From assembly GCA_013336525.1 (NCBI GenBank), contig JAAXTM010000001.1:186001-250000 (forward strand): a stretch of 64,000 nt of DNA, read 5' to 3'. Numbering within the stretch: position 1 is the first letter of the stretch; every line of letters begins with the position of its first letter. A model generated the notes under the pieces. It was not told where the DNA came from, made no database searches, and saw only the letters and a program-made list of their open reading frames with translations. Shown here in pieces: positions 11,489 through 19,985 of the stretch. Both the position numbers and the translations under genes were made by a program. The DNA is from Geobacteraceae bacterium. GTDB taxonomy: Bacteria > Desulfobacterota > Desulfuromonadia > Geobacterales > Pseudopelobacteraceae.

Positions 11489-13243
11489 ATGTCATTCAAT
11501 GGTGACCTTGAACATTTTCCTCTGGCAGATGTTATTCAACTACTGCACATGACCAGTAAAACCGGTATCTTGTACTTAAAAAGTCCTAAAGGCGAGAGTC
11601 AACTGGTTTTTCAAGACGGTTTTTTTGTCAGCGCGAACCATTTGAATAACAGTGTCAGGATTGGCAAAGTCCTGGTTGATATGAGCGCTATTACTCAGGA
11701 AACGCTCAATCAAGCACTGATAGACCAGAAAGAAGCCGGAAAGAATCGCAAGCCGCTGATCGCTACCTTGATCGAACAGGGCTCAATTGACAAGGATACT
11801 GCATTCAACGGGCTTGAAACATTGATTGAAATGACCATTGTAGAAGTTTTAACCTGGCCGAGCGGTACATTTACACTGGATGTATCAAAAGAAAATGTTT
11901 CAGATGAATATCGTTATTTCCCGGAAAAACTGAATCAGGAGATACTGCTGAACGCGCAAGGCGTTCTGATGGATTCATTGCGTATTTATGATGAAAAAAT
12001 GCGTGACGGGACGTTAAGTAAAATATTCTTTACCGAGGAAAGTTGCAGCAACACAGAAGTCTCTTCTCCTGACTATGATTCACCGGAAATAACGTCCGAC
12101 TTGCTCGGTCTCGACGTGCTTGACACAATTACCCGAAAGATACCGGATGTTTTTATTGGCCTTAAAGATCATGATATTGCTGATGAACACCAGCAGGCAG
12201 TTGCCAGTGCTCTTCCGGAAACAACTGCTGATCAACAGGAACAGCTTGTCTCCTTTTTGACCGGTTTGTCTACTCCGTCGCCATCTGCCTCAGTGGTACC
12301 TGTTACCGCAATTATCCTGCTGACACAAAACGAACTGCTTTCCCATGCAATTACAACAGTCTGTAAACACGAGAATCTGTTTATTTTTTCTTCAGATGAA
12401 GAGAACAGTCTGGATATTGTCATAGAACAGTCTCTTGGGAGAGATCTGCATCCGATTCTGCTAATTGACATTCCTCATGATAATGATGGAGTGGAGTACC
12501 TGGCTCTTGTACGGCAGAAAATTTCTGCCTACCCGCAAATTTCAATACTGATTGCCGCCTGCTGTCACGTTTGGCACTCAATCAGTATGGACGCTTTGGG
12601 AGCTGGAGCCAGATCATTTATTCCTCGACCCTGCAGGCACTGTCATGAAGATTCATATGTGCCGCATATGATATCGTTTCTGTCCGGAATCGGTTCATTC
12701 CTGAAAACAATTCTGCCAGTGCCGAATGCTGAAGTAGGCCACCAGTTTGTATTATCACTCAATCAACTGAAATCACTCTCAGAACCTCCTGAAATTGCGT
12801 TGGTAATGCTCCGGTTTGCAGCACTCCAGTTTGAGCGCGCTCTGACCTTTGTTGTTGCCAAGTCTGATTTGATTGCAGAAAAATCAATTGGGGTCACCAC
12901 TGACAAATCTGGTGGAGCAACGGCACCGCTAATGTTTCGCATCCCTCTTGATGGGCATTCGGTTCTTCAGGAGGTTGTTGAAAAAGGACGCCTTTATTAC
13001 GGACAGCGTAGCGATACTGTGCTTACAAGCCTGTTGCACAAGGAGATCGGAGCGCCGCACAGTCCAAAAGTAATGGTAGTTCCGTTGATCAGTCGTGGTA
13101 AGGTCATTGCCTTAACCTATGCTGATTTTGGTCCGAAGCCGGTTTCTCCACCTCAAATCAACCTGATTGAAGCGCTGGCTCAACATGCCGGCTCAATACT
13201 GGACAATGCCCTGTACCGGAAGAGCATTGAAAACAAGGCCTGA
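11489..13243 (+). CDS. DUF4388 (PATAN) regulatory protein with receiver-like and GAF-like regions
   Basis: The N-terminus (MSFNGDLEHFPLADVIQLLH, then GILYLKS) is a textbook DUF4388/PATAN domain, found in signalling proteins of this lineage. Residues 85-165 continue with a helical segment (IEQGSIDKDTAFNGLE). The middle part (about 270-380) looks like a degenerate receiver: beta-strand VTAIILL and ILLIDIPHDNDG in place of the usual phospho-Asp loop. The last 160 residues resemble a GAF-like sensor (GRLYYGQRSD, VVPLISRGKVIALTYADFG, EALAQHAGSILDNAL). No output domain is seen, so a protein-interaction or sensory role is inferred. GGGGG precedes the ATG, and a TATAAT at 11448-11453 is a possible -10. 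PilT-like and NtrC-type genes follow. Confidence 0.8.
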   Translation: MSFNGDLEHFPLADVIQLLHMTSKTGILYLKSPKGESQLVFQDGFFVSANHLNNSVRIGKVLVDMSAITQETLNQALIDQKEAGKNRKPLIATLIEQGSIDKDTAFNGLETLIEMTIVEVLTWPSGTFTLDVSKENVSDEYRYFPEKLNQEILLNAQGVLMDSLRIYDEKMRDGTLSKIFFTEESCSNTEVSSPDYDSPEITSDLLGLDVLDTITRKIPDVFIGLKDHDIADEHQQAVASALPETTADQQEQLVSFLTGLSTPSPSASVVPVTAIILLTQNELLSHAITTVCKHENLFIFSSDEENSLDIVIEQSLGRDLHPILLIDIPHDNDGVEYLALVRQKISAYPQISILIAACCHVWHSISMDALGAGARSFIPRPCRHCHEDSYVPHMISFLSGIGSFLKTILPVPNAEVGHQFVLSLNQLKSLSEPPEIALVMLRFAALQFERALTFVVAKSDLIAEKSIGVTTDKSGGATAPLMFRIPLDGHSVLQEVVEKGRLYYGQRSDTVLTSLLHKEIGAPHSPKVMVVPLISRGKVIALTYADFGPKPVSPPQINLIEALAQHAGSILDNALYRKSIENKA

Positions 13244-13288
13244 TATAGTATAGTTTTTTCAACATCTTATTTTACAGCGGAGGGTACG

Positions 13289-14359
13289 ATGGACACAAAA
13301 ATCTTGCATCAGATTCTGGAAATAGCATTCCAGAAGAAAGTTTCTGACCTCCACTTCGAGGTCGATAATCCACCTTTTTTTCGAGGAAGGGGCCAATTGG
13401 TCCGTGCCAAGATGCCTAATCTGACCCCTGATGATACTCAATTCATCGCTGAAACTGTCCTGGCTCACAATGGCCGCGAGATAAACAAAGATATTAAAGA
13501 GTGTGACGCTTCATACTCTCTGTCATCGGGGGGACGTTTCAGAGTCAGCATCTTCCGTCAGAAGGGATGTTTTGGAGTTGTAATGCGGGTGATTCCGCCA
13601 GTCATCGGGACTTTTGAAGACCTGAATCTGCCGCAGGTTTTAGCAGAAATTGCCCAGGTTCCAAACGGTCTGATTCTGGTGACAGGACCTACCGGCAACG
13701 GTAAGTCAACAACGCTGGCCTCTATGCTGAGACACCTAAATGAAAACTTTAGCTACAACATAATAACTATCGAAGATCCAATAGAATTTTTATTTACTTC
13801 TCAAAAAAGTTGTATCATTCAGCGTGAAATAGGTATCGACACCGACAGCTTCGCTTCCGCTCTGAAGGCTGCGCTCAGAATGGATCCTGATGTCATAATG
13901 GTCGGCGAAATGCGTGACAAGGAGACCATCGATTCATGCATAAAAGCCGCTGAAACCGGGCACCTGGTCCTTTCTACCCTGCACACTCAAGGAGCTGTCT
14001 CCACCATAAACAGGATAATCGGGCACTTTCCCCCTGATGCACAGGAAATAATGCGTCAACGATTGGCTGATATTCTTGTTGCAACTGTCTCAATTCGCCT
14101 GATCAAGGATAAAACCGGCGAAAGCATACTTCCGGTAGTCGAGATAATGCGGGCAACCACAACCATTCAGGCCTGCATTCGCGATGGACGTCTCGATGAA
14201 ATTGAACAGCACATTGAAAAAGGGGCATCCCAGTATCATATGCAAACTCTTGATATGCATCTTCTGCAGCTGTATCGCCAGGATCTTATTACCTTGAATG
14301 ATGCACAGCGGCTGACTCATTCGATGGATTTTGAACGAAAATTGATGTTCGACAACTAA
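13289..14359 (+). CDS. pilT: PilT-family type IV pilus retraction ATPase paralogue
   Basis: A 356-residue secretion ATPase with a PilT-like N-terminal domain (SDLHFEVDNPPFFRGRG), Walker A GPTGNGKS at 133-140, an Asp box (IITIEDPIEF), Walker B region (DPDVIMVGEMRD) and a His box (TGHLVLSTLHTQ). PilT powers pilus retraction and twitching. Compared with canonical PilT, Walker A has Asn for Ser, and the AIRNLIRE motif needed for retraction is changed to TIQACIRD. This suggests a PilT/PilU-like paralogue rather than the main motor. GGAGG precedes the start. It follows the PATAN gene by 45 bp and precedes the regulator by 34 bp. Confidence 0.85.
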   Translation: MDTKILHQILEIAFQKKVSDLHFEVDNPPFFRGRGQLVRAKMPNLTPDDTQFIAETVLAHNGREINKDIKECDASYSLSSGGRFRVSIFRQKGCFGVVMRVIPPVIGTFEDLNLPQVLAEIAQVPNGLILVTGPTGNGKSTTLASMLRHLNENFSYNIITIEDPIEFLFTSQKSCIIQREIGIDTDSFASALKAALRMDPDVIMVGEMRDKETIDSCIKAAETGHLVLSTLHTQGAVSTINRIIGHFPPDAQEIMRQRLADILVATVSIRLIKDKTGESILPVVEIMRATTTIQACIRDGRLDEIEQHIEKGASQYHMQTLDMHLLQLYRQDLITLNDAQRLTHSMDFERKLMFDN

Positions 14360-14393: not shown

Positions 14394-15758
14394 ATGGAAA
14401 AAATTCTTATAATTGATGATGAATCTTTTATCCGCGAAACCGTTTCGCGGATTTTATCGGAAGAAGGGTATCAGGTCTGTCAGGCTTCCAATACCGTTGA
14501 AGCGAGTGAACAGGTAGCTTCTGGTGAAGTTGATCTTGCGCTGCTGGACCTGAACCTAGGTCCGGAAAATGGTATCGATGTCCTGAAAATACTGAAGGAG
14601 CTTGATCCGGAATTGCTGGTTATAATTATTACCGGTTTCGGATCGGTGGAAAGTGCCGTAGATGCGCTTAAGATGGGCGCTTTTCACTATATGAAAAAAC
14701 CTTTTAAAGCCGACGCACTGAGAGTAATTGTCAAGCTTGCGCTTCAAACACAGACCCTGAAACGTGAAGTACGAAACCTGAAACGTGCCGACAACTGCCT
14801 TCCGGGGCGCTCACCAATGATCGGCAGGAGCAAGCCTTTTTTAGAAGTAGTAGATCAGGTTAGAGAAATTGCCAGAATTCCCTCGACTGTCTTGATTACC
14901 GGCGAATCTGGCACGGGCAAGGAGCTGATTGCCCGGGCAATACACGACCTTTCCGACCGTCACGATGCCGCTTTTGTAGCCATTAATTGCGCTTCAATCC
15001 CTGCAGCGCTGCTGGAAAGTGAACTCTTTGGTTACGAAAAAGGTTCATTTACCGGTGCCGCCTCTCGGAAGATAGGCCTGCTTGAGGAGGCACATCATGG
15101 CACGGTTTTTCTTGATGAAATCGGTGAGATGGATTTTTCCATGCAGGCCAAGCTTCTCCGTGTACTTCAGGAACGAACAATCAGGCGTGTCGGTGGAGTC
15201 AATGATATCAGCATTGATGTCCGAATTATTGCGGCGACAAATCGCAACCTGCTGAATAAAATTTCTACCGGCACTTTTCGCGAAGATCTTTATTACCGAA
15301 TTAATGTATTCCCGATTCATGTCCCGCCACTAAGGGAGCGCAGAGGCGATATCAGTATGATTGCTTCCTATTTCCTTGATACATTCAGCCGCTCTTTTGG
15401 TCGCGACTTTAAGGCGTTGTCACCTGAGGCTGCAGGGTTGATGGAGGATTACAGCTGGCCGGGCAATATTCGTGAACTGAGGAATGTTATTGAGCGTATC
15501 TGCATTATGAAATATGGTCCAACACTCCTCCCGGAGCATCTGCCTCAGGAGATACGGGGGGGTAATGCTGGTAGTTCACTCTCGCAACCGGCACATCTTC
15601 CCATGGACACAGGATTAGATGAAGCCGTAATAAATTTTGAAAAAACTATCATCTGTCATGCCTTGGAGAAATGCGGTGGCAATGTTTTACAGACCGCTGC
15701 AGCACTTAAAATTCCACGTGGCACGCTCCGCTATAAAATGGATAAATACGAATTATGA
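14394..15758 (+). CDS. sigma-54-dependent response regulator (NtrC family)
   Basis: The protein has three parts: a receiver with phospho-acceptor D52, an AAA+ central domain with Walker A GESGTGKE at 170-177 and the sigma-54 contact loop GSFTGA at 217-222, and a Fis-type helix-turn-helix at the C-terminus (NVLQTAAALKIPRGTLRYK). The usual loop is GAFTGA, and the Ser at position 2 is a tolerated variant in many regulators. It would activate sigma-54 promoters after phosphorylation by a histidine kinase, none of which is adjacent. Its stop overlaps the next gene by four bases. A sigma-54 promoter lies 1 kb downstream in front of dctP, so that operon is a candidate target. Confidence 0.92.
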   Translation: MEKILIIDDESFIRETVSRILSEEGYQVCQASNTVEASEQVASGEVDLALLDLNLGPENGIDVLKILKELDPELLVIIITGFGSVESAVDALKMGAFHYMKKPFKADALRVIVKLALQTQTLKREVRNLKRADNCLPGRSPMIGRSKPFLEVVDQVREIARIPSTVLITGESGTGKELIARAIHDLSDRHDAAFVAINCASIPAALLESELFGYEKGSFTGAASRKIGLLEEAHHGTVFLDEIGEMDFSMQAKLLRVLQERTIRRVGGVNDISIDVRIIAATNRNLLNKISTGTFREDLYYRINVFPIHVPPLRERRGDISMIASYFLDTFSRSFGRDFKALSPEAAGLMEDYSWPGNIRELRNVIERICIMKYGPTLLPEHLPQEIRGGNAGSSLSQPAHLPMDTGLDEAVINFEKTIICHALEKCGGNVLQTAAALKIPRGTLRYKMDKYEL

Positions 15759-16631: not shown

Positions 16632-16671
16632 GTGGCTGATTATCGCCACCAAGCTGGCTGTTTTTGGCCAC
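16632..16671 (+). promoter_or_regulatory. paired palindromic upstream activator sites
   Basis: Two near-identical palindromes, GTGGCTGATTATCGCCAC (16632-16649) and CTGGCTGTTTTTGGCCAC (16654-16671), share TGGCTG-N6-GCCAC and are 22 bp apart, about two helical turns. They lie roughly 120-140 bp before the start expected from the -24/-12 element, the usual position of enhancer sites for NtrC-type activators. A partial third copy (CTGGTTG) follows at 16674. The binding protein is not known. Confidence 0.75.
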
Positions 16672-16753
16672 AACTGGTTGCTCAAATGAAGCATTTCAAC
16701 CGTATATTGTAAAACAGAACAGTATATTAGATTGTTACAGGGATAATTAAAAA

Positions 16754-16769
16754 TGGCACTGCTGTTGCA
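16754..16769 (+). promoter_or_regulatory. sigma-54 promoter of the dctPQM operon
   Basis: TGGCAC, five bases, then TTGCA matches the -24/-12 consensus with the required ten bases between the GG and GC dinucleotides. Transcription would start near 16780, leaving an untranslated leader of about 64 bases before dctP, whose ATG is preceded by AGGAGG. Confidence 0.88.
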
Positions 16770-16843
16770 GTATACAGTTAATGTATTATACTGAACACTG
16801 TTAGCTAACTGAGATGCACCAATAACCCAGAGGAGGAACACGT

Positions 16844-17854
16844 ATGAAACTGAATCGTTGTATTAAAACCCTGCTTATTGCTACTGCTCTAACCTTGCCG
16901 CTGACCGCAATGGCCGCCCCGACACCAATTGTAATCAAGTTCAGCCATGTTGTTGCCCAGCACACCCCTAAAGGACAGGCCGCTGATTATTTTAAAAAGA
17001 TTGCTGAGGAACGTACCAAAGGGCGGGTAAAGATCGAAGTTTATCCGAATAGCCAACTCTACAAGGACAAGGAAGAGATGGAAGCGCTGCAGCTTGGTGC
17101 TGTTCAGATGCTGGCACCTTCCCTCGCCAAGTTTGCACCGCTTGGTGTAAAAGAATTCGAAGTATTTGACCTCCCCTTCATATTTGACAATTACCAGGAG
17201 CTGCACAAGGTCACCCAGGGTCCGGTTGGCGCCAAACTGCTGAGCAAACTCGAATCAAAAGGTATTCATGGTTTGGCCTACTGGGACAACGGTTTCAAGG
17301 TTATGAGCGCGAATAAGCCACTCAAGACCCCTGAAGACTTCAAAGGGCAGAAATTACGCATTCAGTCATCAAAAGTGCTTGATGCTCAAATGCGCTCAGT
17401 GGGTGCTAATCCTCAGGTTATGGCATTCTCTGAAGTTTATCAGGCTCTCCAGACCGGCGTTGTAGATGGCACTGAGAATCCGCCTTCAAATCTTTTCACT
17501 CAGAAAATGCACGAAGTTCAGAAATACGTTACCCTCTCTGACCATGGTTACCTCGGGTATGCCGTTATTGTTAACAAAAAATACTGGGCTGGGTTACCTG
17601 CCGATATCCGCACTATTCTTGAAGGTGCTATGAAGGATGCCACAGTATATGCAAACGATATTGCTAAAAAAGATAATGAACAAGCTTTGGCAGGTGTTAA
17701 AAAATCTGGTAAGTCTCAATTCATAACCCTGACACCACAAGAGCGCGCAGCCTGGAAAAAGGCTATGGATAAGGCCCACAAAGACAACATGGGGCGTATC
17801 GGCGCTGATCTTGTTCAGGAAGTTTACAAGGCAACCGGTTACTCACCAAACTAA
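16844..17854 (+). CDS. dctP: TRAP transporter C4-dicarboxylate-type binding protein DctP
   Basis: A 336-residue periplasmic solute receptor with a signal peptide ending at AMAA. Family landmarks are KFSHVVAQHTPKGQAADYF, PNSQLYKD, FDLPFIF and GQKLRIQSS, whose Arg in family members clamps the substrate carboxylate, and QTGVVDGTENP. It captures a C4-dicarboxylate such as succinate, fumarate or malate and passes it to the DctQM permease for sodium-coupled uptake. It is the first gene after a sigma-54 promoter with paired activator sites. A strong hairpin with T tract after its stop should make receptor mRNA more abundant than permease mRNA. Confidence 0.93.
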   Translation: MKLNRCIKTLLIATALTLPLTAMAAPTPIVIKFSHVVAQHTPKGQAADYFKKIAEERTKGRVKIEVYPNSQLYKDKEEMEALQLGAVQMLAPSLAKFAPLGVKEFEVFDLPFIFDNYQELHKVTQGPVGAKLLSKLESKGIHGLAYWDNGFKVMSANKPLKTPEDFKGQKLRIQSSKVLDAQMRSVGANPQVMAFSEVYQALQTGVVDGTENPPSNLFTQKMHEVQKYVTLSDHGYLGYAVIVNKKYWAGLPADIRTILEGAMKDATVYANDIAKKDNEQALAGVKKSGKSQFITLTPQERAAWKKAMDKAHKDNMGRIGADLVQEVYKATGYSPN

Positions 17855-17870
17855 TTCCATTCTTTATTCA

Positions 17871-17901
17871 GGCCGCTGCGGCCAACGCAGCGGCCTTTTT
17901 T
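17871..17901 (+). terminator. rho-independent hairpin between dctP and dctQ
   Basis: GGCCGCTGCG and its perfect inverted complement CGCAGCGGCC (10-bp stem, 5-base loop) are followed by six Ts. Because dctQ and dctM follow at once with no obvious new promoter, it likely acts as a partial terminator setting the receptor to permease ratio. Confidence 0.9.
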
Positions 17902-17931
17902 ATGACATTTTTTTTATTCAGGAGTCTTGCC

Positions 17932-18606
17932 ATGATGAAATACCTAAACCATCTTGAGGAAATTATTATCACCTTCCTCATCGGCTCGGCGACGGTGGTA
18001 ATTTTTACCGCCGTTGCTCACCGCTATCTATCAGGAATCCCGATTCCAGGCGTACAGGACTGGCTGTTGACCATCAATATGAGCTGGTCACAGGAACTTT
18101 GCATCTATATGTTTGTCTGGATGGCAAAGTTCGGTGCTGCCTACGGTGTCCGTACCGGTATTCATGTCGGTGTTGATGTAATTGTCAACCGTCTGCCGGA
18201 ATCATGGAGAGTTAAGTGTGTCCTGATTGGTATTGCCGGTGGTGCTCTTTTTACCAGTTTGATCGGTACACTGGGAGCAAGGTTCGTCTGGGAAAACGGC
18301 ATGCACTATGCCGTGATAAACAAATTGGGAATGAATATCGGGGATCTTTATGAAGGGCCGATCACACCGGATCTGGAGTGGCCTACCTGGATTATCTATG
18401 CGGCTGTCCCGCTCGGTTCCTATCTTATGTGTTTCCGCTTCCTGCAGGTAGGGTGGAGTTTCTTCCGCACAGGGGAACTGCCGCATCATGATCACACCCA
18501 TGTCGACGGGATTGAAGAGCTGAAAGTCATGGATGCGACAGAGGCACTTGAGGAATATGAAGTCCATAAATTTGATGGACAGGAAAAAGATGGGGGTGCC
18601 AAATGA
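17932..18606 (+). CDS. dctQ: TRAP transporter small permease DctQ
   Basis: The small four-helix membrane subunit of the TRAP transporter (224 residues from the ATG at 17932, preceded by AGGAG at 17920). Typical features are the NHLEEIIITFLIG first helix, the WSQELCIYMFVWMAKFGAAYGVRTGIHVGVDV core, and C-terminal helices around FTSLIGTLGARFVW and IIYAAVPLGSYLM. A charged cytoplasmic tail rich in Glu, Asp and His closes the protein and is longer than in many DctQ proteins. The stop overlaps the dctM start by four bases. Confidence 0.9.
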   Translation: MMKYLNHLEEIIITFLIGSATVVIFTAVAHRYLSGIPIPGVQDWLLTINMSWSQELCIYMFVWMAKFGAAYGVRTGIHVGVDVIVNRLPESWRVKCVLIGIAGGALFTSLIGTLGARFVWENGMHYAVINKLGMNIGDLYEGPITPDLEWPTWIIYAAVPLGSYLMCFRFLQVGWSFFRTGELPHHDHTHVDGIEELKVMDATEALEEYEVHKFDGQEKDGGAK

Positions 18607-19985
18607 GTACAACTGCTGTAGCTGGATGGGAACAATTTAGCAAGCAAAAGGCAACGAAATGGCTGCTCTGTATTGCAGCGGCACTTGGTGCAATAGCTAT
18701 GCTTGGCAGCACCGGCATAGTATTTGCGCTCCTGCTGCTTCTGATGCTGACCGGCATGCCTATTTCAATCGCGCTCGGGCTCACCGTTCTCTCTTTCCTC
18801 TTCTTTTTTACAGAAATACCGACTGAAGCGGTGGCAATGAAACTTTTCACCGGCATCGAGAAGTTTGAGATCATGGCTATTCCGTTCTTTATTCTGGCCG
18901 GAAATTTCCTGACTCACGGTGGCGTAGCCAAAAGGATGATCAACTTTGCGACATCGATGGTCGGACACCTGTACGGGGGTCTGGCTTTATCAGGTGTCAT
19001 CGCCTGCGCCCTGTTCGCCGCCGTATCCGGGTCAAGCCCGGCAACAGTCGTGGCAATCGGCTCGATCCTGCTCCCGGCCATGGTAAAAGCAGGCTTTCCT
19101 AAACGCTTCGGGGCCGGCGTCATCACCACATCCGGGTCACTTGGAATTCTGATTCCCCCGTCAATCCCGATGGTTATCTACTGTGTTGCGACTAACTCAT
19201 CGGTTGGCGGTATGTTCATGGGTGGTGTTGTACCAGGATTGATGCTGGCAACCCTGTTGGGAGTCGTTTCCTGGTGGATAGCCCGCAAAAACGATTATCC
19301 TCGTATGGCAAAAGCCACATGGTCAGAGCGTGGCAAGGCTTTTCGCGAGAGTGTCTGGGGACTGCTGCTGATTGTGATCGTACTCGGTGGTATATACAGC
19401 GGTATGTTCACCCCGACTGAGGCTGCTGCCATGAGTGCTGTCTATGCATTCTTCGTTGCAGTATTTGTTTACAGAGATATCACTTTCAAAAAAATACCGA
19501 AAGTTCTGCTCGATTCGGCAAGTATGTCGGCCATGCTGCTGTATATCATTACCAACGCGGTACTGTTCTCCTTCCTGATGACTCATGAGCAGATCCCCCA
19601 GATCATGGCAGACTGGATTCTGGGCCATAACCTCGGCGTAGTTGCGTTTCTATTGGTCACTAACGTACTGCTGCTGCTGGCCGGCAACGTCATGGAACCA
19701 TCTTCAATCATCCTGATTCTTGCACCGATTCTGTTTCCGGTGGCTATGAAGCTTGGTATTGATCCTATTCATTTCGGTGTTCTTATCACCGTCAATATGG
19801 AGGTCGGCATGTGCCACCCACCGGTGGGTCTTAACCTCTACGTGGCCAGCGGTATTACCAAGATGGGTATTTCAGAGCTCTCGGTGGCGGTCCTGCCATG
19901 GCTGGTTGCTATGATTGGGTTCATGCTGCTGATTACCTATGTACCGATTATTTCGCTCTGGCTACCGCGTCTGCTTGGTTACTGA
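18603..19985 (+). CDS. dctM: TRAP transporter large permease DctM
   Basis: A 460-residue membrane protein with about twelve hydrophobic segments, the ion-coupled transport subunit of the TRAP system. Conserved signatures are FFILAGNFLTHGGVAKRMI, AVSGSSPATVVAIGSI, TTSGSLGILIPPSIPMV, MFTPTEAAAMSAVYA and MCHPPVGLNLYVASG. It is about 30 residues longer at the N-terminus than many DctM proteins, with a short soluble extension before the first helix. Overlap with dctQ shows translational coupling. A terminator at 20012 ends the operon. Confidence 0.95.
   Translation: MSTTAVAGWEQFSKQKATKWLLCIAAALGAIAMLGSTGIVFALLLLLMLTGMPISIALGLTVLSFLFFFTEIPTEAVAMKLFTGIEKFEIMAIPFFILAGNFLTHGGVAKRMINFATSMVGHLYGGLALSGVIACALFAAVSGSSPATVVAIGSILLPAMVKAGFPKRFGAGVITTSGSLGILIPPSIPMVIYCVATNSSVGGMFMGGVVPGLMLATLLGVVSWWIARKNDYPRMAKATWSERGKAFRESVWGLLLIVIVLGGIYSGMFTPTEAAAMSAVYAFFVAVFVYRDITFKKIPKVLLDSASMSAMLLYIITNAVLFSFLMTHEQIPQIMADWILGHNLGVVAFLLVTNVLLLLAGNVMEPSSIILILAPILFPVAMKLGIDPIHFGVLITVNMEVGMCHPPVGLNLYVASGITKMGISELSVAVLPWLVAMIGFMLLITYVPIISLWLPRLLGY

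Follow-up and report, generated by a model that had tools for sequence, protein, structure and literature searches.

We identified a pair of tandem DNA boxes upstream of the sigma-54 promoter of a TRAP transporter operon (dctPQM) in a stretch of 64,000 nucleotides of Geobacteraceae DNA, hereafter the window. The boxes are very probably the tandem enhancer sites of the NtrC-family activator encoded at 14394-15758, and this activator, together with a dCache-HAMP-HisKA kinase, very probably forms a two-component system dedicated to dicarboxylate-type uptake, as judged by comparison of the window with related genomes. An uncharacterised Geobacter-type two-component system hereby gains a probable binding box, a probable target and a probable partner kinase, and the box could be used for reading the regulon in related genomes. 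The observation made in the original prediction was confirmed, and its interpretation is supported on comparative evidence.

The two boxes, which have no assigned strand, are GTGGCTGATTATCGCCAC at 16632-16649 (box 1) and CTGGCTGTTTTTGGCCAC at 16654-16671 (box 2), and both were recognised by their sequence and by the conservation of the pair in relatives. The motif TGGCTG-N6-GCCAC, which was predicted to occur twice, is present exactly at 16633-16649 and 16655-16671, with 22 bp from start to start. Two copies in 64 kb compare with an expected number of 0.10, and two copies were present in none of 100 shuffled sequences. The -24/-12 (sigma-54) promoter TGGCACTGCTGTTGCA (16754-16769, plus strand) is the only stretch in the window that matches TGGCAC-N5-TTGC without any mismatch, as expected of a sigma-54 promoter element. 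The boxes start 121 and 99 bp before the start of this promoter, in line with the predicted placement about 120 bp upstream of a consensus promoter before dctP, and transcription would be expected to start near 16780. As for the motif itself, its exact double occurrence stood, but the TG that follows TGGC is not a conserved part, since the relatives keep TGGC-N8-GCCA (16633-16648 in box 1 and 16655-16670 in box 2). Palindromy is confined to the outer arms: box 1 has GTGGC/GCCAC, with symmetry at 10 of its 18 positions, and box 2 has TGGC/GCCA, with symmetry at 8 of 18. Alignment of the relatives' sites in both directions gave the full box TGGCNRAWWTYNGCCA with an A/T-rich core, in which the information content of the inner R, A/T and Y positions is 0.6-0.9 bit (maximum 0.87) despite these being free in the search pattern. 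A wide regulon of single boxes in the window's own genome (G000) was considered and rejected: apart from the pair, single TGGCNRNWWNYNGCCA sites are near background there, because 8 were found compared to 5 for the reversed control.

The operon behind the promoter consists of dctP (16844-17854, PF03480 and TIGR00787), dctQ (17902-18606 from the listed ORF start, PF04290) and dctM (18603-19985, PF06808 and TIGR00786), all on the plus strand, and encodes the TRAP solute-binding protein, the small permease and the large permease, respectively. PF03480, PF04290 and PF06808 follow each other consecutively in this one operon, the arrangement of a TRAP DctPQM transporter. The true start of dctQ may be a later ATG. 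The solved chains nearest to the dctP product carry the titles of C4-dicarboxylate-binding DctP proteins, and these titles together with the TRAP DctP/DctA family names suggest a substrate of dicarboxylate type; it may instead be a C5-dicarboxylate or an amino acid. A terminator-like hairpin with an 11-pair stem and a T-run lies between dctP and dctQ (17870-17896, plus strand) and is a possible partial terminator. A strong hairpin at this position suggests that the binding protein would be made in excess of the permease. The dctP loci nearest to that of the window, which belongs to a 3.5-Mb genome, are from Pelobacter, Geobacteraceae, Geomonas and Citrifermentans, and by these names the genome is placed in the Geobacter group.

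The predicted box binder is encoded on the plus strand at 14394-15758 and contains the Pfam domains Response_reg, Sigma54_activat, AAA_lid_14 and HTH_8. With its receiver, its AAA+ domain with an EKGSFTGA loop and its C-terminal Fis-type HTH, it has the architecture of a group I enhancer-binding protein. A PRGTLRY motif in the recognition-helix region is common to all eight aligned orthologues. The sigma-54 contact loop varies among orthologues and reads GSFTGA in the window and in L034, GAFTGA in L048 and GAFTDA in five others; the orthologues cited for this variation beside 14394-15758 are those of L113, L114, L205, L267 and L269. Both GSFTGA and GAFTDA are listed as tolerated loop variants in the excerpt of PMC4641369. 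Among the 27 named Geobacter-type dctP loci (L031-L057), 24 include an orthologue of the regulator (62-85% identical) within the DNA retrieved around dctPQM. The genes between regulator and dctPQM vary, and in L054 the regulator gene is inverted and lies downstream. The proposal that the regulator at 14394-15758 is the candidate activator is supported by this linkage and by its co-occurrence with the box pair, described below.

The proposed partner is a kinase of about 845 amino acids with the domain order dCache_1-HAMP-HisKA-HATPase, encoded directly upstream of the activator gene in many relatives. In the window's own genome it is unlinked to the activator (G000:C24:303758-306241). The dCache domain of the kinase scores under the Pfam cut-off except in L055 (53.6 vs 45). 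Minus-strand proteins of about 850 amino acids encoded downstream of dctM in L031 and L041 were also considered as the kinase and rejected, as they are MMPL-family transporters.

The check for the pair in orthologous promoters that came with the original prediction was carried out on the named Geobacter-type dctP loci. L033 was excluded as its upstream DNA was too short, and 22 of the remaining 26 loci have the exact pair. L048 and L053 have the pair with a single mismatch in either or both of its boxes, and upstream of dctP in L039 and L051 no pair was found. This 26-locus count is limited to the named loci, whereas the scans for pair plus promoter read loci in both directions. At the genome level, the exact pair is present in 33 of 58 genomes (the window's own genome and 57 relatives), in single copy in 31 of these 33, compared to 3 of 58 genomes for the reversed-pattern control. 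In the class-wide set of 277 genomes, the exact pair was found in 82 and the reversed control in 5. These numbers bear on the reading in which the pair has nothing to do with activation and is either a hairpin for termination or attenuation or a repeat that arose by chance. On the minus strand, box 1 could indeed fold into a hairpin of 6 pairs with a T-run behind it. However, the pair stays in place before the -24/-12 promoter although the genes upstream of it vary, and this conserved placement speaks against a terminator hairpin; two exact copies are also unexpected by chance, given the shuffled sequences and the reversed control, so that a chance repeat was rejected as well. We consider this reading very improbable.

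Enhancer sites of the regulator at 14394-15758 remain the preferred explanation of the boxes, and for this explanation the co-occurrence of pair, regulator and kinase is informative. An orthologue of the regulator (E ≤ 1e-180) is present in 35 of the 58 genomes, 30 of which also have the exact pair (Fisher p = 4e-8, phylogeny ignored). The cut-off was 1e-140 for the class genomes and 1e-115 for a re-search of 20 genomes; full-length orthologues are at least 55% identical and the next matches at most 48%. The genomes that have the pair but fall outside the regulator count are G042 and G051, in which the regulator is present below the 1e-180 cut-off, and G036, in which a fragment of the regulator shares a short contig (L042) with the pair. 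Conversely, G035 and G049 were counted with the regulator only and have a degenerate pair with a promoter. In G049, this is a one-mismatch pair (L203:7500-7539) that lies before a Liv-type gene and adjoins the activator gene. A kinase orthologue is present in 39 of the 58 genomes, and none of the genomes that pass the strict cut-off for the activator lacks it. The exact pair was found in 32 of these 39 kinase-positive genomes and a degenerate pair with a promoter in three more (G013, G035 and G049). No pair was found in the kinase-positive genomes G002, G021, G028 and G056, of which the first three were also counted with the regulator only. In all four the regulator gene is situated at a contig end or close to one, and it is possible that the target was cut off there. 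In G008, which has dctP, no kinase, regulator or pair was found, and no promoter in the dctP upstream region read. The re-search at 1e-115 covered the 19 kinase-negative genomes and G013 and gave regulator matches in 13 and none in 7. The full-length matches listed among them are 45-48% identical, and the match in G013 is a fragment of 222 residues, 93% identical, at a contig end.

The boxes could also bind another activator or a repressor, with the regulator at 14394-15758 being merely a neighbour. There are 29 PF00158 matches in the window's own genome, and the next most similar activators in it are about 45% identical to the regulator. Directly upstream of the regulator gene (11489-14359) lie genes for a PilT-like ATPase and a DUF4388 protein, and because the regulator follows these genes and the kinase is unlinked, adjacency alone is weak in this genome. 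The same PilT-like/DUF4388 arrangement upstream of the activator, with the kinase elsewhere, was found in L038, L046 and L049, and the activator may also have gained a link to these genes. Four genomes of genus g50 (G122, G124, G125 and G128) have the regulator but no exact pair. Against this alternative, the presence of the pair tracks regulator plus kinase, even when the transporter is a different one or is on another contig, and among the 20 re-searched genomes only G036, with its regulator fragment, has the exact pair. This pattern, with the exact pair missing from genomes that have neither protein, agrees with the predicted NtrC-type control of the uptake operon and makes it quite unlikely that the regulator is only a neighbour.

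In the class-wide scan, the exact pair was found outside the order in five of nine genomes of g50 and in G186. At 1e-140, a regulator orthologue (55-58% identical) is present in eight of the nine g50 genomes. The exception, G121, has the pair without a regulator match, and the discordance within g50 slightly lowers confidence in the two-component explanation. In four of the five g50 genomes with the pair, it precedes a divergent TRAP-type binding-protein gene and is flanked on its other side by a gene that by eye resembles IspE. The g50 pairs of L231, L233, L234 and L235 have a box spacing of 20 bp and lie 122-124 bp from the promoter. The pair of G121 (L232) precedes a periplasmic-binding-protein-like gene and has no -24/-12 match. 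In G100, G181 and G231 the pair is present with no regulator match at 1e-140, and these pairs look like chance: in G100 there is no promoter by the pair, and in G181 (row L236) the promoter scores 26 and no known transporter follows. In G203 one of the two pairs (L240) is without a promoter. The dctP relatives L058-L110, mostly from Betaproteobacteria but also from other groups and a few with little upstream DNA, have pair plus promoter only in L084.

The distances between the elements are restricted. The spacing from box to box is 20-24 bp, which is partly fixed by the search pattern; in a scan of the loci with gaps of 0-20, no other pair spacings were found. The distance from the start of box 2 to the promoter falls into four classes among 70 promoters with a score of at least 26.5: 87-91 bp (23 promoters), 97-103 bp (41), 112-114 bp (2) and 122-124 bp (4), and no distances between these classes occurred in this set. 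The steps are about 11-12 bp, and the best period, which was selected after the data had been seen, is nearer 12 than 10.5 bp for the 22 genus-collapsed distances, compiled by hand. Within several genera (g1, g9 and g10 among them) the distance shifts by about one step. These stepped distances make up a natural series with which a face-of-helix constraint could be tested in a sigma-54 enhancer that has an IHF-like site.

The IHF-like site TATTAGATTGTTA is located between the boxes and the promoter at 16725-16737 on the plus strand and has one mismatch to the IHF consensus WATCARNNNNTTR. Its position is conserved across promoters: a conserved block centred on TATCAGNNNNTTA precedes the -24 element by 29 bp (by 27-28 bp in most promoters of the class at about 88 bp). 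With at most one mismatch allowed, a match to the consensus 26-32 bp from -24 was found in 39 of the 70 promoters and in none of the 70 on the other strand. When matches anywhere in the spacer are taken, the gain is slight (1.81 vs 2.26 mismatches for shuffled spacers), until position is considered. In the six rows with distances of 112-124 bp, the IHF-like site is absent from the 26-32 bp position. The window's own genome has 9 HU/IHF-family matches. Among the 8 that were scanned, 3 pass the IHF-alpha cut-off and two are nearest to IHF-beta, under its cut-off.

The arrangement suggests the following mechanism, which is modelled on established NtrC-family activators. The kinase would respond to a signal outside the membrane, either the substrate or a cue related to it, by phosphorylating the activator (14394-15758). 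Activator dimers would then sit on the two boxes, separated by about two helical turns, and form an ATPase ring. The DNA would be bent by IHF, bound about 29 bp before the -24 element, allowing the ring to reach the sigma-54 polymerase at 16754-16769; the closed complex would be opened and dctPQM transcribed.

To see which genes are preceded by the pair, we collected the distinct rows in which a pair is followed by a promoter with a score of at least 25. In these scans 76 pair occurrences scored below 25 and were dropped; about as many were expected because each pair is read on both strands. Among the 72 rows obtained, 56 precede TRAP dctP-type genes, 9 Liv-type ABC genes, and 3 genes for a dctA-type symporter, and 4 were not assigned to a gene type. 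Two of these last four are cut by the locus ends (L138 and L259), one is probable chance (L236) and one is on the wrong strand (L293). A Liv-type binding protein (Peripla_BP_6) is encoded behind pair and promoter in G039, G044, G048, G041, G020 and others, and LivHMGF-type genes follow that of the binding protein in G044, the genome tested. The DctA-type symporter is encoded behind the pair in G041, G223 and G226 (PF00375 and the NCBIfam DctA model above cut-off in G041, the genome tested). In each of these three genomes one regulator orthologue was found, with the pair before two unlinked operons. Each of the genomes that contribute to the 12 Liv and DctA rows, G247 included, carries a regulator orthologue. 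The exact pair occurs without dctP in G020, G039, G041, G044 and G048, and all five of these genomes have both kinase and regulator.

The Liv-type protein and dctP tend to avoid each other. The former is present in 17 and the latter in 30 of the 58 genomes, and both occur together in one (G035) vs about 9 expected (p = 5e-6, phylogeny ignored; the genome sets for the Fisher tests were compiled by hand). In G035, which is the genome of locus L039, dctP is without a pair and a degenerate pair lies before the Liv gene instead. No such avoidance was found for dctA towards the Liv protein or dctP in the same 58 genomes (Fisher p = 0.8 and 1.0). Eight Liv genomes have the kinase, five with the exact pair and three with a degenerate pair (G013, G035 and G049). 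None of the nine Liv genomes lacking the kinase has an exact pair in the genome-wide pattern search, and in eight of them (all but G029) the upstream region was read as well. Among these eight, G019 (L315) and G034 (L317) retain before the Liv gene a pair with a single mismatch in either or both of its boxes, along with a poor promoter. With no kinase or regulator match in these two genomes, their pairs are probable relics after regulator loss. G040, also a Liv genome without kinase, has one near-box and a fair promoter. Upstream of dctA in G020, G021, G055 and G038 no box was found, and a sigma-54-like site with a score of 25-30 is present. Good sigma-54-like sites without a box pair precede Liv or dctA genes in L321, L322, L323 and L324, pointing to other activators.

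It is possible, and we propose this tentatively, that one two-component system and its DNA address have commanded TRAP, Liv and DctA transporters that replaced each other for one substrate class, that the Liv operon encodes an importer of C4-dicarboxylates or analogues, and that the distance between enhancer and promoter evolved in whole helical turns only. The same box before three transporter families leads to a testable prediction of substrate equivalence and, if true, the Liv-type transporter would have a substrate that its family names, which refer to branched-chain amino acids, do not suggest. The solved structures closest to the Liv protein bear the titles of amino-acid-binding proteins, and a dicarboxylate as its substrate is therefore disfavoured, as far as titles go.

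In the literature search, which covered open-licence papers, no paper was found for the box strings, and no description of the regulator or the box was found in the passages of related papers that were covered. The proposed system would work like the rhizobial DctBD-dctA system, in which an NtrC-family regulator likewise acts with two upstream sites and a sigma-54 promoter of a dicarboxylate transporter. The DctD box is given as TGTGCGgaaatCCGCACA, with at least two sites upstream of dctA, in the excerpt of PMC11077940. Its inner 12 bases are identical to those of a site in G039, ATGGCGGAAATCCGCCAC, and a DctD-type box in Rhizobium gallicum starts 124 bp before -24. The system described here might be a genuine orthologue of DctBD whose box has drifted, and not a separate look-alike two-component system. 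Several differences make this unlikely and led us to reject DctBD orthology as a classification, although the system would act like rhizobial DctBD-dctA. The outer half-sites are GTGGC/GCCAC here and TGTGC/GCACA in the rhizobial box as excerpted (PMC11077940), and neither box in the window matches TGTGCG-N6-CGCACA. The kinase has dCache and HAMP domains, and its best NCBIfam match is AtoS, under the cut-off. The regulator shares 36% identity with the protein resembling DctD that is encoded adjoining dctA in an unannotated R. gallicum record, compared to about 45% with annotated E. coli atoC. In a tree of 41 activators the orthologue clade is firm (100/99) and R. gallicum DctD falls outside it, although on a long branch and with weak deep forks. 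Finally, the pair here also precedes TRAP and Liv-type ABC genes.

The AtoS-AtoC system of E. coli supplies the top-scoring NCBIfam models for both kinase and regulator, but the scores are well below the curated cut-offs (473.9 vs 714 for the regulator and 251.6 vs 646 for the kinase of L045) and the target genes differ. A further set of systems comes from a 2010 study of G. bemidjiensis, reportedly by Aklujkar and colleagues. Kinase/regulator pairs near dcuB and dctA were suggested there to be linked to dicarboxylate transport, as two-component systems from the same bacterial group, and dctPQM was called a proton/fumarate symporter complex (excerpt of PMC2996986). Unlike the present analysis, no box or promoter is assigned to these pairs in section 9 of that paper (PMC2996986). 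In G. sulfurreducens, dcuB is RpoN-dependent according to the excerpt of Leang 2009 (PMC2725144). A further parallel is DVU2827 of Desulfovibrio, a sigma-54 activator whose predicted regulon contains a C4-dicarboxylate or MFS transporter, depending on the genome; unlike the regulator at 14394-15758, it is a one-component regulator with a regulon around pyruvate formate-lyase genes (excerpt of PMC4641369).
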